NCBI GenBank assembly: GCA_025923195.1
Contig: JAICGJ010000023.1
Location: forward strand, 1-43,346
Length of the DNA: 43,346 nt
Reading direction: 5' to 3'
DNA from: Chryseolinea sp.
GTDB taxonomy: Bacteria > Bacteroidota > Bacteroidia > Cytophagales > Cyclobacteriaceae
Shown here: positions 7,589 to 31,458 of the stretch, piece by piece
Position numbering within the stretch: position 1 is the first letter of the stretch
Layout: each line of letters opens with the position of its first letter
Notes under the pieces: model-generated
Seen by the model: the letters and a program-made list of their open reading frames with translations, nothing else
What the model was told of the DNA's origin: nothing
Databases searched by the model: none
Program-made: the position numbers and the translations under genes

Positions 7589-8110
7589 TCACAAAAATCG
7601 CTCTCCGGCCTCTTTCCAGTTGTTTAACCTTTGAAATGTGTTGATGTGCAAATTGTGCGGGGCAGAAAAAATGAACTTTTCGCCATTAAATGTTTCAAGG
7701 TTATAAGGGAGATCATCAATCATATAATCGCCGTGGACAACGGCTTTGCTTCCACAAAAGACGATCTGTTTCCAGTGAAGAAATGGGAAATGTTCCCCAA
7801 GCCATTTCAATTTCTCTGATAGTGATTGGGGAAACTCAAGCGCTGCAGACACGATATACAATTCATATTTTTTGTTCAGCTTTTCCACAATCTCCTGACT
7901 TCCTTCATTGGGTTGCATTGTCTGAAAAAAAGTTTCACGGAACGGGAATTGCTGAATGATGTCATGGTGATTTGGAAAGCCAAGTCCCTCTTCCTGGTGA
8001 TTGAGACTTTCGCGCGTAACACGCACACCGAATTCTCTTTCATAAAAATTGATGAACTGGCCCGTAGCATCGGCAATCACGTCATCCATATCAACAATCA
8101 ATCGTTTCAT
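7589..8110 (-). CDS. 5'(3')-deoxyribonucleotidase (NT5C family, HAD superfamily)
   Basis: A cytoplasmic HAD-fold phosphatase of 173 residues, predicted to dephosphorylate nucleoside monophosphates in pyrimidine salvage. The nucleophile and acid/base are Asp7 and Asp9 in IVDMDDVIAD. Motif II is the VSAA at the end of KYELYIVSAA, and the metal-binding aspartates are in GDYMIDDLPYN. The length matches the short bacterial NT5C proteins. The ATG at 8110 is used; a TTG one codon upstream is unnecessary. It is divergent from the DUF2007 gene 50 bases away and is followed by the VWA gene after 93 bases. Substrate specificity cannot be told from sequence. Confidence 0.85.
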   Translation of the reverse strand: MKRLIVDMDDVIADATGQFINFYEREFGVRVTRESLNHQEEGLGFPNHHDIIQQFPFRETFFQTMQPNEGSQEIVEKLNKKYELYIVSAALEFPQSLSEKLKWLGEHFPFLHWKQIVFCGSKAVVHGDYMIDDLPYNLETFNGEKFIFSAPHNLHINTFQRLNNWKEAGERFL

Positions 8111-8160: not shown

Positions 8161-8571
8161 ATGGGAGAGCGCGATGAAATTATAGTTTTTAAGCAATTTG
8201 AAACAACTATTGAAGCCAATATTGTCAAGGCGAAACTGGATGCTTATGGTATCCCGTGTTTTCTAACGGAGGAAAATATGACAAATTTGTATCCTGGTGC
8301 CAGCAGTTTGATGAATTTTAATGTGCGACTCCATTTGTTTGCTTATGATCTTGAAAGGGCAAAGCAAGTTATGGAGGAAAATCATCTGGAGCTGAACGAT
8401 GAGACCACAGTGAAGTGCCCTCGCTGCAAATCAAGAAATATCGAGCGGGATTTTCCAAAGAAATTATCGCTCACCTTTGGGTCTACGCTTAGCGTGCTTT
8501 TTTTTGGGATTTTTTTTCCCCACAAGAAGGTATTTAGGTGCTTAGAATGTGAATATGAGTTTAATGATTGA
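8161..8571 (+). CDS. DUF2007 domain protein with zinc ribbon
   Basis: A 136-residue protein. Residues 5-75 match the DUF2007 (putative signal-transducing, PII-like fold) pattern: VFKQFETTIEANIVKAKLDAYGIPCFL, then an ERAKQVMEE helix. The tail holds two CxxC pairs (CPRCKSRN and CLECEYEF) that would form a zinc ribbon, with a hydrophobic hairpin between them (LTFGSTLSVLFFGIFF) that may dip into the membrane. It precedes the SLOG-like gene by 46 bases in the same direction. The molecular function of the family is not established. Confidence 0.75.
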   Translation: MGERDEIIVFKQFETTIEANIVKAKLDAYGIPCFLTEENMTNLYPGASSLMNFNVRLHLFAYDLERAKQVMEENHLELNDETTVKCPRCKSRNIERDFPKKLSLTFGSTLSVLFFGIFFPHKKVFRCLECEYEFND

Positions 8572-8617
8572 CCAAATTTGTTAGTATCCAACGGCAAATT
8601 ATCTTGCAGACTGAATC

Positions 8618-9148
8618 ATGAATATGCTACAGAAGATTGTCATCGGAGTAATGGGCCCCGGAGAAAACGCCTCTCCTGACGAAAACGAAATGGCGTATGA
8701 ACTTGGCAAAGAAATCGCCAAACAGGGATGGGTCACATTGACAGGCGGAAGAAGCTTTGGCATAATGGATGCCGCCCTTAAGGGAGCCGTCGAGGCGGGT
8801 GGCCTTACAATTGGCATTGTACCGGGCGATAACGATAAGAACTCGTCGGACCATGCTCAGATAAAAATTGTAACCAGCATGGGAAGTGGCAGGAACTACA
8901 TCAGTGTTTTGACTAGCCATGTTCTTGTTGTCCTGGGAATGGCATCAGGAACAGCCTCGGAAGTAGCCCTTGCCCTGAAGTCCCGCAAAAAAGTTATTCT
9001 TCTGAATCAGGACGAAATAACAATTCGCTTCTTCAAAAATTTAGGCTCTTATAATGTAATTGTCACGAAGACCGTAACAGAAACAATACAAAATATCAAG
9101 CAATACGTGGGAATGAATCAGGGAGTTGAAATCCCCGACGAATCTTGA
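8618..9148 (+). CDS. SLOG/LOG-like nucleotide-binding protein (TIGR00725 type)
   Basis: A 176-residue Rossmann-like protein of the DprA/LOG-related superfamily. It shows IGVMGPGE at 9-16, GGRSFGIMDAA at 43-53 and GMASGTASEVALAL at 107-120, the last being a variant of the PGGxGTxxE motif of cytokinin-activating LOG phosphoribohydrolases. Residues Arg92 and Glu115 would fit the nucleotide site. Members of this subgroup are generally annotated only as putative lysine-decarboxylase-like or LOG-like proteins, so the substrate is open. It converges with the aldo/keto reductase gene, with 12 bases between stops and no obvious terminator hairpin. Confidence 0.8.
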   Translation: MNMLQKIVIGVMGPGENASPDENEMAYELGKEIAKQGWVTLTGGRSFGIMDAALKGAVEAGGLTIGIVPGDNDKNSSDHAQIKIVTSMGSGRNYISVLTSHVLVVLGMASGTASEVALALKSRKKVILLNQDEITIRFFKNLGSYNVIVTKTVTETIQNIKQYVGMNQGVEIPDES

Positions 9149-17857: not shown

Positions 17858-19048
17858 TCATTTCCTGCGAAGGAGCGCCATGTAAAATCCATCAAATCCA
17901 TCGGAAGGCCAGCAATATTTTTGATCCACAAACTCAAATGCATCTCCATTTCGCTTCAGGAAGGTATCAACCTGATTTTCATTCTCAGAAGGCAGAATGC
18001 TGCACGTAGAGTACGCCACAAGCCCATCCTTTTTGACCATGTTGCAATAATCTTGCAGAATATGTTGTTGAAGTTCCTTGACATTACCAATAAACTCGGG
18101 TGATAGTTTCCATTTGGCATCGGGATTTCGTTTTAAGACACCTAAGCCGGAACAGGGAACGTCGAGCAGAAGGCGATCAGCAGATCCCTCCAACCGTTTG
18201 ATAGTCTTGGAAGACTCAATAACCCGGGTTTCCAAGTTGTTCACGCCGGCCCTGCGCGCTCGCTTTTGCAGTTCTTCCAGTTTAACACCCTCGACATCCA
18301 TGGATATAATGCGTCCCTTGTTATTCATTAATGATGCGAGATGGAGCGTCTTTCCTCCAGCACCGGCGCAGGCATCGATCACCCGCATGCCCGGAGCCAC
18401 GCGCAGAAACGGTGCAACTGCCTGGGATGCGGCATCTTGAACCTCAAAAAGTCCGTCTTTAAAGGCGGGGGTCCGAAAAATATTCTGCCGTTCCTTAAGC
18501 ACAAGTGCGAGCGGAAAATCAGGTACGTAATCCGTTTCCACATCGGCCTCCCGCAACAGACTCTGCAGCTCTTTAACCGAAATCTTCAAGGTATTTACTC
18601 GTAGCACTACGCGAGCCTCCTCATTGAGAGCGTGAAGTTCCTTTTCCCATCGTTTTCCTAATTCCGCCTCACCAAGTGTGTCAAGCCAGTCAGGAATAGA
18701 TTCACGAAATCTTCGGATAGATTTCATTTTTACGCTGCGCTCAACGATCCTTTTTTCGGACAGTTCTTTAAACTCCGTCCAGGATGGCAAAGGTATTTCA
18801 TTGAGCACACACCATCCGCCCAGCAACTTCCAATAGTCGCCATCAGCCGCTTCAGTAATATTTTGCAGAAAGCGATACCACCGAACAATATCGTAAGTGG
18901 TCTCCGCGATGAAACGGCGGTCTCGCGCTCCCCATTTTGGATTCTGTTTTAGAACTTTTTCAATTACTTTGTCTGCGTACCTGTTTTGTTCAAAGATCAT
19001 TTCCAGCGCACTGATTACAGCCCGCGCAAGATTTACGTAAAGTTTCAT
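17858..19048 (-). CDS. RsmB/NOP2-type RNA (cytosine-5-)-methyltransferase
   Basis: A 396-residue SAM-dependent methyltransferase that would modify cytosine in 16S rRNA or tRNA. Residues 1-75 are a NusB-like helical domain. The SAM loop DACAGAGGKT is at 225-234. The two catalytic cysteines are Cys299 in DVPCSGLG and Cys349 in YSTCSILPSENE. The fold matches RsmB/RsmF, but the exact target base cannot be assigned from sequence, so no symbol is given. It starts at ATG 19048, just 18 bases from the edge of a heptad repeat array (19066-19128) on its upstream side. Confidence 0.88.
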   Translation of the reverse strand: MKLYVNLARAVISALEMIFEQNRYADKVIEKVLKQNPKWGARDRRFIAETTYDIVRWYRFLQNITEAADGDYWKLLGGWCVLNEIPLPSWTEFKELSEKRIVERSVKMKSIRRFRESIPDWLDTLGEAELGKRWEKELHALNEEARVVLRVNTLKISVKELQSLLREADVETDYVPDFPLALVLKERQNIFRTPAFKDGLFEVQDAASQAVAPFLRVAPGMRVIDACAGAGGKTLHLASLMNNKGRIISMDVEGVKLEELQKRARRAGVNNLETRVIESSKTIKRLEGSADRLLLDVPCSGLGVLKRNPDAKWKLSPEFIGNVKELQQHILQDYCNMVKKDGLVAYSTCSILPSENENQVDTFLKRNGDAFEFVDQKYCWPSDGFDGFYMALLRRK

Positions 19049-19065
19049 GGAGGGCGAAGATAGCC

Positions 19066-19247
19066 GTTATCAGGTAATAGTTATCCGTTATCCGTTATCC
19101 GTTAATAGTTAGTAGTTAATAGTTAATAGTGGTAATAGTATAGTGCTGCGAACTTTCAAGAACCGTATGACACACCCCCTCACACTCCCACGATTAACTA
19201 ATAACGGATAACTATTAACTAATAACTGATAACTATTAACTGCTAAC
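19066..19247. repeat. Inverted pair of 7-base-period GTTAnnn arrays
   Basis: Nine consecutive 7-base units (19066-19128) start GTTA (one is GGTA), including three identical GTTATCC and three GTTAATA. A second array of eight units (19192-19247) has the form nnnTAAC, the same word on the opposite strand. A 63-base spacer (19129-19191) separates them. The array occupies the region between the RsmB-like gene (minus) and plsC (plus), and no gene was found inside it. The two arms could pair as a long imperfect hairpin. Confidence 0.85.
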
Positions 19248-19307
19248 GGCAGGCCTTGCATGTTCATCAAACTTTAAGAACTTTCGCGAAATTTTTATTG
19301 TCAGGTT

Positions 19308-20045
19308 TTGAAGATTGTCAATTGGATCCTGCTCAAGTTATATGCCTTTTGGGTATTTCTTGTGTTTACAATATTTATGATTGTCCTGCTGCCCGGTATT
19401 ATACTTCCATTTATCATCGGGGGAAAAGTGAGTTGGATCGGAGGAAAGTTTCTCTGGATTTGGTCGTGGATATTCAGTATGCTAACCTTTATCCGTTATG
19501 ACTTTTATGGAAGAGAGAATTTTCGCAAAGGTCAATCTTATATTTACGTAAGCAACCACACCTCGTTCCTCGATATTCCGGGACTTTGGATGATCATTCC
19601 AGGTGAAAAGAAACCTCTTGCAAAAAAAGAGCTGCTGAAAATTCCCGTATTCGGATGGATAGCAAGATCTGCGGCTGTCATCGTGGATCGATCAAGCGGT
19701 GAAAGCAGAAAGAAGAGTTTGGATTCGCTAAAAAAAACGTTAGCTGACGGGACCTCGATTTTGCTCTTTGCAGAGGGAACGCAAAACCGTTCGAAAGAAG
19801 TTCTTCAACCCTTTAAGGACGGCGCATTTCGACTTGCAATCGACACCCAGCAGCCCATTTTACCTATGGTAGTCGTTGGGGCTGGCCCGCTTATGCCCCC
19901 AGGAACAATTCGGTTGAAACCGGGACGGATAAAGGTAATTGTTGCACCAGAGATCCCGACCAAAGGATTGACATCTGAAGATCAGGCGCGCTTGAAGCAG
20001 GTAACTTTTTCCACGATGAAAAAAATGATCACCGACAACACCTGA
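19308..20045 (+). CDS. plsC: 1-acyl-sn-glycerol-3-phosphate acyltransferase
   Basis: A 245-residue inner-membrane acyltransferase that adds the second acyl chain to lysophosphatidic acid, making phosphatidic acid for phospholipids. The catalytic HxxxxD is His84 to Asp89 in SNHTSFLD. The glycerol-phosphate site FAEGTQNRS is at 154-162, and PMVVVG and PPGTIRLKPGRI follow. Two hydrophobic segments at the N-terminus (about 10-37 and 48-62) anchor it. The start is TTG at 19308; the first in-frame ATG would remove the first anchor. It converges with the haloperoxidase-like gene and both end at a shared hairpin. Confidence 0.88.
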   Translation: MKIVNWILLKLYAFWVFLVFTIFMIVLLPGIILPFIIGGKVSWIGGKFLWIWSWIFSMLTFIRYDFYGRENFRKGQSYIYVSNHTSFLDIPGLWMIIPGEKKPLAKKELLKIPVFGWIARSAAVIVDRSSGESRKKSLDSLKKTLADGTSILLFAEGTQNRSKEVLQPFKDGAFRLAIDTQQPILPMVVVGAGPLMPPGTIRLKPGRIKVIVAPEIPTKGLTSEDQARLKQVTFSTMKKMITDNT

Positions 20046-23592: not shown

Positions 23593-24222
23593 TTAAAGAG
23601 GGATATAGACGATCTTCTTGGTCTGAAAAAAATCCTCCTTAAAATAATCCGATAGCTCGAACAGCTGATATGGTTTTTTTAGTTGGGCAAGTTCGTCGGT
23701 CAAATCACCGCCTTTGAGGTAGAGGATCCCATTGTACAGTTCATGGGTCGACTTCTTTTTTATCCTTTTATGAACCCATCCATAAAAAGCTTTCAGGTGT
23801 GTTACCGCGCGGCTAACTATAAAATCATACTCCTCTTTTATTTGCTCTGCGCGGATCTGCTCGGCCTTTACATTCTTCAGTCCTAACGAAGTCGCAACGT
23901 TGTTAACGACCGTGATCTTTTTCCCAATGGAATCAACCAAATGAAAGTGAGTCTCGGGAAAAAATATAGCTAGGGGAATTCCTGGAAAGCCACCCCCCGT
24001 TCCAACGTCCAGGACTTTCGATCCTGGTTTAAAAGAAATTACTTTGGCTATGCCCAGCGAGTGCAAAACATGATTAACGTACAGGTTGTCGATATCCTTT
24101 CGGGAGATAACATTGATTTTGTCATTCCAGCCTTTGTAAAGTCCGTAAAGTTCCGAGAATTGAGTTTTTTGTAAAGGGGACAGATCGTGAAAGTAATGAA
24201 GTATCAACTCAGAATTTTCCAA
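23593..24222 (-). CDS. rsmG: 16S rRNA (guanine527-N7)-methyltransferase RsmG
   Basis: A 209-residue cytoplasmic methyltransferase that makes m7G527 in 16S rRNA. The SAM-binding motif LDVGTGGGFPGIPLAI is at 71-86. The family's conserved start (ELILHYFHDLSPLQKTQF), NVISRKDIDNLYVNHVLHSL and SRAVTHL segments are all present. The start codon is TTG at 24222, as family N-termini begin ME-x-ILxYF. That codon lies inside a period-8 repeat array (24213-24260), so the repeat contributes the start and the first residues. It follows the ECF sigma gene by 40 bases. Confidence 0.93.
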   Translation of the reverse strand: MENSELILHYFHDLSPLQKTQFSELYGLYKGWNDKINVISRKDIDNLYVNHVLHSLGIAKVISFKPGSKVLDVGTGGGFPGIPLAIFFPETHFHLVDSIGKKITVVNNVATSLGLKNVKAEQIRAEQIKEEYDFIVSRAVTHLKAFYGWVHKRIKKKSTHELYNGILYLKGGDLTDELAQLKKPYQLFELSDYFKEDFFQTKKIVYIPL

Positions 24223-24260
24223 CCTTGCAATTTTGTAATTTTTGAATCTTGCAATTTCCC
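24213..24260. repeat. Period-8 word array at the rsmG start
   Basis: Six consecutive 8-base units on the plus strand each begin AA and have TT centrally (consensus AATnTTnn), for example AATTTTCC, AACCTTGC, AATTTTGT and AATCTTGC. The array fills the gap between the sigma-factor stop and rsmG and includes the rsmG start codon. Confidence 0.7.
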
Positions 24261-27311: not shown

Positions 27312-27321
27312 TGTGGAATTT

Positions 27322-27411
27322 TAGATTGCAGATTGCAGATTGTAGATTGAGCAAGCGAATTCAGCTTGTACGCACCCAATCGTCAATCTAAAATCGTCAA
27401 TCGTCAATTGA
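27322..27411. repeat. Inverted pair of 7-base-period ATTG-core arrays
   Basis: Four 7-base units (27322-27349) have the form nAGATTG. A second array of five units (27377-27411) has the form CAATnnn (one reads AAAT), the same core on the other strand. ATTTTAGATTG (27318-27328) and CAATCTAAAAT (27384-27394) are exact reverse complements. The whole 102-base gap between the LacI gene and the tgt ATG (27414) is taken up by this structure. Confidence 0.75.
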
Positions 27412-31423: not shown

Positions 31424-31458
31424 AAGTTTCAGGTTTCAAATTTGAATTTTGAGGTTTC
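31424..31458. repeat. Five-unit 7-base-period array
   Basis: Five consecutive 7-base units (AAGTTTC, AGGTTTC, AAATTTG, AATTTTG, AGGTTTC) occupy much of the 81-base gap between fabI and ispE. The consensus is ARRTTTS with one deviation. There is no inverted partner array. Confidence 0.65.

Follow-up and report, generated by a model that had tools for sequence, protein, structure and literature searches.

From its sequence, the gap between an rsmB-like gene and plsC in this Chryseolinea sp. seems to hold one copy of a non-coding hairpin repeat that is scattered through the genome and has arms of seven-base words. We give about an even chance to the reading that positions 19066-19247 are a partly eroded copy of a dispersed, non-coding, MITE-like inverted-repeat element whose arms are heptad satellites. 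The window referred to below is the whole 43,346-nt stretch of DNA analysed (contig JAICGJ010000023.1, positions 1 to 43,346).

A heptad hairpin between the rsmB-like and plsC genes

The left arm (19066-19128, + strand) is a run of nine in-phase heptads, eight of them with a GTTA core, and the right arm (19192-19247) consists of eight GTTAnnn heptads on the - strand. A 63-base spacer, or loop, separates the two (19129-19191). The preliminary description had nine GTTAnnn heptads facing eight nnnTAAC heptads across this spacer; array, spacer and counts hold, but the second word of the left arm, GGTAATA, breaks the core. At the inner end of the right arm, a G-rich, heptad-phased stretch common to other GTTA arms reads GTGGGAGTGTGAGGGGGTGTGTC on the - strand (19169-19191) and is almost absent at the left inner end. 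Self-matches at lag 7 numbered 44/56 in the left and 36/49 in the right arm. The window's intergenic DNA, put through 200 Markov shuffles, gave 30 and 28 at best, so that each arm exceeded all 200. The arm pair folds as RNA at -48.6 kcal/mol compared with a shuffle mean of -29.8 (z -4.6), and none of 200 shuffles was as good.

The flanking genes are divergent and encode an RsmB/F-type rRNA methyltransferase (17858-19048, - strand, Pfam PF01189) and a PlsC-type acyltransferase (19308-20045, + strand, Pfam PF01553). On the rsmB side the array starts 17 nt from the start codon; on the plsC side it stops a few bases short of an upstream stretch that G004, a congener in the same genus, also has. 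Together with its G-rich inner end, the right arm matches two other loci, L143 (77 nt, 83%) and L141 (57 nt, 89%). Because most loops are unshared, what assigns this copy to the element is its pair of arms and, on the right, the G-rich inner end, rather than a body. The orthologous G004 gap (L132, against window 19049-19307) is longer, at 604 nt, and by eye contains an extra open frame of ~ 100 codons. Another extra congener frame was seen at L162:10169-10718, where this genome has a heptad array (L188:7283-7668). The idea that arrays mark sites of gene loss was rejected, as the G004 gap was > 300 bp longer in 3 of the 12 array gaps mappable to that genome and in 6 of 57 others (P 0.18).

Three further window loci had been described as sharing the design, and this stands for one of them. 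At 27322-27411, GATTGCA words (left arm, 27318-27352, + strand) face CAATCGT words as read on the + strand (right arm, 27377-27411, - strand), recognised by lag-7 runs and by a fold with z -3.3 that 1 of 200 shuffles equalled. The GTTTCAR heptads at 31424-31458 (+ strand) form a single run, with 20/28 matches at lag 7 against a shuffle maximum of 19, and we did not detect a second array beside it. The locus at 24213-24260 is a weaker case, a AATTTTGC-like run with 26/40 matches at an 8-base lag (shuffle maximum 24). It was not recovered by the lag scan, its 8-base lag being the earlier reader's choice, it overlaps ORF calls at both edges, and it is probably something different from the heptad arrays.

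Heptad arrays in the genome, genus and family

Searching the genome (6.57 Mb in 379 contigs, ~ 25% of it covered by the stretches examined) with the pattern GTTANNNGTTANNNGTTANNNGTTA gave 198 + 155 matches, compared with 7 + 9 for the reversed pattern (353 versus 16; these are overlapping 25-mers, not arrays). In five other genomes of the genus the pattern had 0, 3, 0, 0 and 0 matches. A strict word-free scan at lags 4-12 of 835 kb of the genome's own stretches, 232 kb of which had been chosen for GTTA arrays, found 51 lag-7 arrays, all 51 intergenic; Markov shuffles yielded none. The nearest other short lag, 8, gave 8 arrays, and 400 kb of congener DNA contained a single lag-7 array, which was non-intergenic. 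At a looser threshold, an array-blind sample of 68 stretches (1.36 Mb, picked by contig number and position) had 47 arrays, 40 of them intergenic, against 2 in 400 kb of the congeners. This sample avoids the 12 earlier stretches (232 kb) taken for GTTA arrays, owing to which GTTA arrays are under-sampled in the array-blind set and over-sampled in pooled counts.

By manual reading, the array words of this genome include GTTAWYM, GGTATAR, GTCSATR, AAAGCNN, GTTTSAR, CAGCTKA, GATTACC and GTAAGTR. Long hairpins come from several of the word families, as in the regions L188:11884-12050 (-73.8 kcal/mol) and L217:11172-11387 (-95.7 kcal/mol). Among 31 neighbouring array pairs of any word, 23 were inverted, 4 direct and 4 neither. 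The preliminary description is thus borne out where it proposed genome-wide, phase-locked arrays, mainly of period 7, with an intergenic bias, different core words and inverted arms.

We also recorded several local arrangements. At L270:2285-2687 (contig C295), 5 or 6 tandem units of ~ 60 nt, each containing GTCSACR heptads, lead into an array of ACTTACC heptads; a Y1 transposase gene lies ~ 1.5 kb away. At L191:3781-4133 (contig C37), a CAGCTKA heptad array occurs twice, together with its neighbour sequence, at a distance of ~ 215 nt, and by eye the copies seem to differ by one heptad. A Cobalamin riboswitch (RF00174, 103 bits) lies at L142:14988-15200.

Across the family, the GTTA pattern occurred in 55 of 148 genomes, the backward word in 54 and either in 73; this control is strict, since some genomes use the backward word, ATTG, in heptads of their own. 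Stretches from some relatives, mostly chosen for hits, show vocabularies of their own, and in one relative (G047) the word class shifts along one array without loss of phase. Three G047 sites (L228:6006-6108, 7846-7917 and 8570-8651) drift from GGATGAA through GTGAATA and GTTAAGA to GTTAAGC in constant 7-base phase, the neighbouring sites having the same word order. Another relative (G023, L232 and L233) carries several copies of a different interspersed intergenic repeat (CCTTGATTGAAACAAAATGACC...) near ATTG heptad arrays.

Arms, shared body and possible origins

The words of the GTTA arms follow a rule: in 43 arrays, 204 of the 232 words fit GTTA-W-Y-M, whose eight possible forms are all present, although the constancy of the core is partly built in because words were scored on runs found by GTTA. 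Within an arm, GTTATCC sits further out (mean relative position 0.32, n = 60) than GTTAATA/GTTATTA, which tend to the inner end (0.62, n = 69; P 3e-7, with the caveat that words of one array are not independent). These words have no G run, whereas the inner stem is G-rich: the 25 inner bases were strongly G-rich in 18 of 40 arms, the outer ones in 4 of 40. The inner end often continues in phase into GTGGGTGTG..., and the GTTANNNGTTANNNGTGRGNGTG junction was found at 25 places as against none for the backward control; at least one of these 25, on C295, is probably something else, a joining with another array.

GTTA arms face inward: the order +,- was seen in 13 pairs no more than 400 bp apart and the order -,+ in one neighbouring pair. 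The G-richer strand was the 5′ arm in 14 of the 23 inverted pairs of any word and the opposite held in 2, the other 7 being mixed; outside the GTTA family (13 pairs) the counts were 8 versus 2. Single arrays had their G-rich 5′ end nearer the gene in 14 of 21 cases, which is not significant. Word use was no more alike within a pair of arms than between pairs (0.409 versus 0.414, P 0.53, 13 pairs), and local copying between paired arms was therefore rejected for want of excess similarity.

A body is shared by few copies. The 133-nt loop of the copy on contig C5 recurs in full length at C37 (88%), in part at C93 (two matches, 83% over 69 nt and 90% over 30 nt) and as one 30-nt match at C266. The C5, C37 and C93 copies agree from heptads through body to heptads, similarity stops within the heptads, and the flanks differ; the three body copies, in part for C93, sit between different, unrelated genes. 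They are the only three found among hundreds of array matches. When loops were compared in the examined stretches, 3 of 21 were matched elsewhere, each in word-like sequence, and the C5-type body had no match in 2.04 Mb from other genomes. By eye, no target-site duplication is visible at the ends of the three fuller copies, whose arm ends vary.

The C93 version (L275, C93:22801-23591) and the C266 version (L280, C266:1-500) have the same uvrA-like 3′ flank, identical at 193 of 197 positions, and the words of their uvrA-flank arms agree in order. The C266 body is reversed relative to that of C93 (59/59 identical). The C266 arm counts 15 seven-base steps, as many as the left (6) and right (9) arms of C93 have together, and three bases differ. 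Judged by these two sequences, the difference suggests that inverted heptad arms recombined and that copy number changed in 7-base steps; the pair could also be a strain mixture or an assembly chimera. The uvrA-like flank would carry either an invertible intergenic hairpin or a mixture of strains. In other family genomes, 2 of 9 indels between 11 close copies were of 7 bases, too few to judge by.

On the reading of the locus as a copy of a dispersed element, each copy would run from (GTTAWYM)n through a G-rich stem, which in the best copies reads GTGGGTGTGRG..GGGTGTGTCGCTCGATT, to a central body, beyond which stem and heptads return in reverse. Copies would have spread by transposition or by copying along some other route. 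Their heptad ends may then lengthen or shorten in 7-base units, by slippage or by unequal exchange, and their words may drift inside the W-Y-M code; recombination between the inverted arms could flip the body. Selection would mainly purge copies that intrude on genes or promoters, and the element would thus be selfish or neutral, not regulatory. The other heptad words may have arisen where this satellite process worked on further intergenic inverted repeats, of which some would be ancestral. The inward-facing GTTA arms are terminal inverted repeats as in a MITE, and dispersed copies at unrelated sites are seen for C5, C37 and partly C93 and presumed for the 19066-19247 locus. Transposase involvement is possible. 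A search of the Y1 family found no link to the arrays: four Y1 genes are present, none flanked by a GTTA hairpin within the 1.5-4 kb examined and one with other heptads 1.5 kb away. A higher number of Y1 transposases was rejected as the distinguishing trait, congeners having 1, 2, 3, 2 and 4.

A tentative and broader possibility is a word-independent process of 7-base amplification in this family of Bacteroidota. It would produce inverted, phase-locked heptad arms at many intergenic sites, with a genome-specific, rule-bound vocabulary (here GTTA-W-Y-M) and, irrespective of the word, a tendency for the G-richer strand to form the 5′ arm. Such a process would bloom in single species, its period being set by a cellular machine and not by the sequence. 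Slippage as the maker of the arrays is plausible, with indirect evidence from the C93/C266 pair. Its purest form, in which short ancestral hairpins or word pairs were expanded at each site by 7-base slippage without a mobile element, seems unlikely to account for the arrays. It draws on the orthologous gaps of G004. At L149:12271 this genome has long arms where the G004 gap has a two-heptad GTTA hairpin and an eight-T run, and GTTA pairs at 7-base spacing are mildly in excess between G004 genes (13 versus 2-11 at other spacings). A GGTATAG hairpin occupies a gap that lacks arms in G004; its loop resembles that gap and thus seems to enclose ancestral gap DNA and not an element body, and a terminator-like stem may remain as a remnant at the site. 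When 14-mers of each array were compared with the orthologous G004 gap as a test for seeds, three of the 10 gaps gave a closer match than shuffles did (P 0.015, 0.010 and 0.005), although in one of these (27311) the match is partly ordinary flank; the combined P was 0.006, compared with 0.84 for mismatched gaps. Seed tests, L149:12271 and the GGTATAG gap together suggest that some arrays of the wider heptad set grew out of ancestral seeds. However, the 19066-19247 locus showed no seed (P 0.905), nor did five others of the 10 gaps (P 0.195 to 0.92; another gave 0.075), and the lack of likeness in word use within arm pairs also speaks against growth in place. The in-phase GTGGGTG junction and the shared body of the GTTA copies need copying between sites, and growth in place alone therefore fits some of the other words but not these.

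We consider it improbable that the hairpins serve as transcription terminators or 3′-end stabilisers of the flanking genes. In the array-blind sample and the window, arrays lay nearer to 3′ than to 5′ gene ends as called by a crude longest-ORF caller (median 13 versus 57 nt, P 0.016), but this difference was absent in the stretches chosen for GTTA (2 versus 22 nt, P 0.71). Convergent gaps were slightly in excess (6 versus 3.3 expected, P 0.10), yet orientation did not deviate significantly from the length-weighted expectation (divergent gaps, 6 versus 7.9). The T run at the L149:12271 seed would suit a terminator, whereas the 19066-19247 locus occupies a divergent gap and has no T run after its arms. 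There is little to recommend the arrays as multi-site platforms for a DNA- or RNA-binding protein reading GTTA every 7 bases, three words making two turns of DNA. The core is constant while the remainder varies in a rule-bound way, and the part of PMC4679880 on TAACTGA repeats proposes a protein-binding role for them; against this, one genome has many unrelated core words, some words vary inside the core, and congeners live without arrays. The reverse-transcriptase origin put forward in the preliminary description, with a telomerase-like or other enzyme writing words from an RNA template, can almost be dismissed. Templated slippage would look similar, in that core and phase stay constant and the remainder varies, but this is a resemblance only. 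RVT_1 (PF00078) has no match in this genome, which makes such an enzyme unlikely, and none in array-rich G047, while the almost array-free congeners G001 and G002 do have RVT_1 matches.

Two losses of repair functions were rejected as causes. SbcD (TIGR00619), taken as a marker for loss of SbcCD and hence hairpin tolerance, had no match in this genome, but also none in G001, G003 and G004. It passes the cut-off in 70 of the 148 family genomes; at least 20 GTTA + ATTG matches were present in 14 genomes with SbcD and 11 without (P 0.38), and with at least 1 match the tendency was opposite (41 with versus 32 without, P 0.048). Mismatch-repair loss does not apply, as MutS1 is present in 6 of 6 genomes of the genus.

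Significance and known systems

The genus offers a sharp contrast, one species having hundreds of pattern matches and five sister genomes 0 or 3, to which the several word families in one genome and the apparent isomer pair at one locus add. Contrast and isomer pair together make slippage, recombination and transposition separable by resequencing of strains. The repeat may also help to ask why bacteria favour seven-base repeats; as to why heptads dominate the longer simple repeats of bacteria, passages of PMC4679880 and PMC4692102 quote a polymerase-footprint idea. If the convergent polarity found here and in Xanthomonas is general, it would point to a mechanism common across phyla.

The GTTA words look like the ends of one interspersed element, which goes half way towards the refutation set out in the preliminary description (words that are parts of one known mobile element), but no known element of this kind was found: Rfam gave no match at the GTTA elements, and the literature searched yielded no description. 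REP/BIME elements, associated with Y1 (RAYT) transposases, are multi-copy intergenic palindromes, often in inverted pairs. Unlike in that system, none of the four Y1 genes here is flanked by a GTTA hairpin, and five congeners also have Y1 genes (1-4). BrickBuilt of Porphyromonas gingivalis, as the relevant text of PMC4596501 describes it, is an intergenic MITE-like element with a tandem repeat and ~ 19 copies per genome. It shares with the GTTA element a Bacteroidota host, intergenic location, MITE-like form and an included tandem repeat, but has a 23-base repeat in its middle and short inverted ends, whereas here the tandem repeat constitutes the inverted ends.

The P6b stem of the Nostoc tRNA-Leu intron contains degenerate heptanucleotide repeats (Costa et al. 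2002, as cited in a passage of PMC3488679). As here, heptads line both sides of a hairpin whose length is set by repeat number, but those of Nostoc are confined to one intron and the present arrays are interspersed between genes. TAACTGA heptads are known from Beggiatoaceae, Cyanobacteria and five Bacteroidetes according to the portion of PMC4679880 that deals with them. They belong to one word family with the arrays here, since TAACTGA reads GTTATCA on the other strand, and they are intergenic, mix heptamers and are patchy in Bacteroidetes. In the Beggiatoaceae genome described there, the repeats are direct, mostly point to a start codon and include one inverted case, whereas here inverted pairs prevail. 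GTTATCA is, moreover, a minor word here (8 of 232), and the inverted arms occur at both gene ends.

A further close parallel is the GGGAATC/(GGGANTN)n heptads of Xanthomonas, which, in the sections of PMC4692102 on these repeats, have period 7 with positions 1-4 and 6 conserved and the rest varying, are 89-93% intergenic and near ORFs, and include 70 and 75 cases of two nearby repeats in convergent orientation. The same sections report no mobile body. The arrays described here have in common with them the period, a partly conserved word, the intergenic bias and convergent inverted pairs. Where Xanthomonas has one word of G-quadruplex type, this genome combines GTTA words, in which no G run occurs, with several other word families. 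The present repeat is further set apart by a shared body, a shared G-rich stem and its being nearly absent from the sister species. The proposal of a new class therefore fails, since both the TAACTGA heptads (PMC4679880) and drifting heptads in convergent inverted pairs (PMC4692102) are already known. What is new here is the presence of several vocabularies in one genome, the bloom in one species and the shared body.
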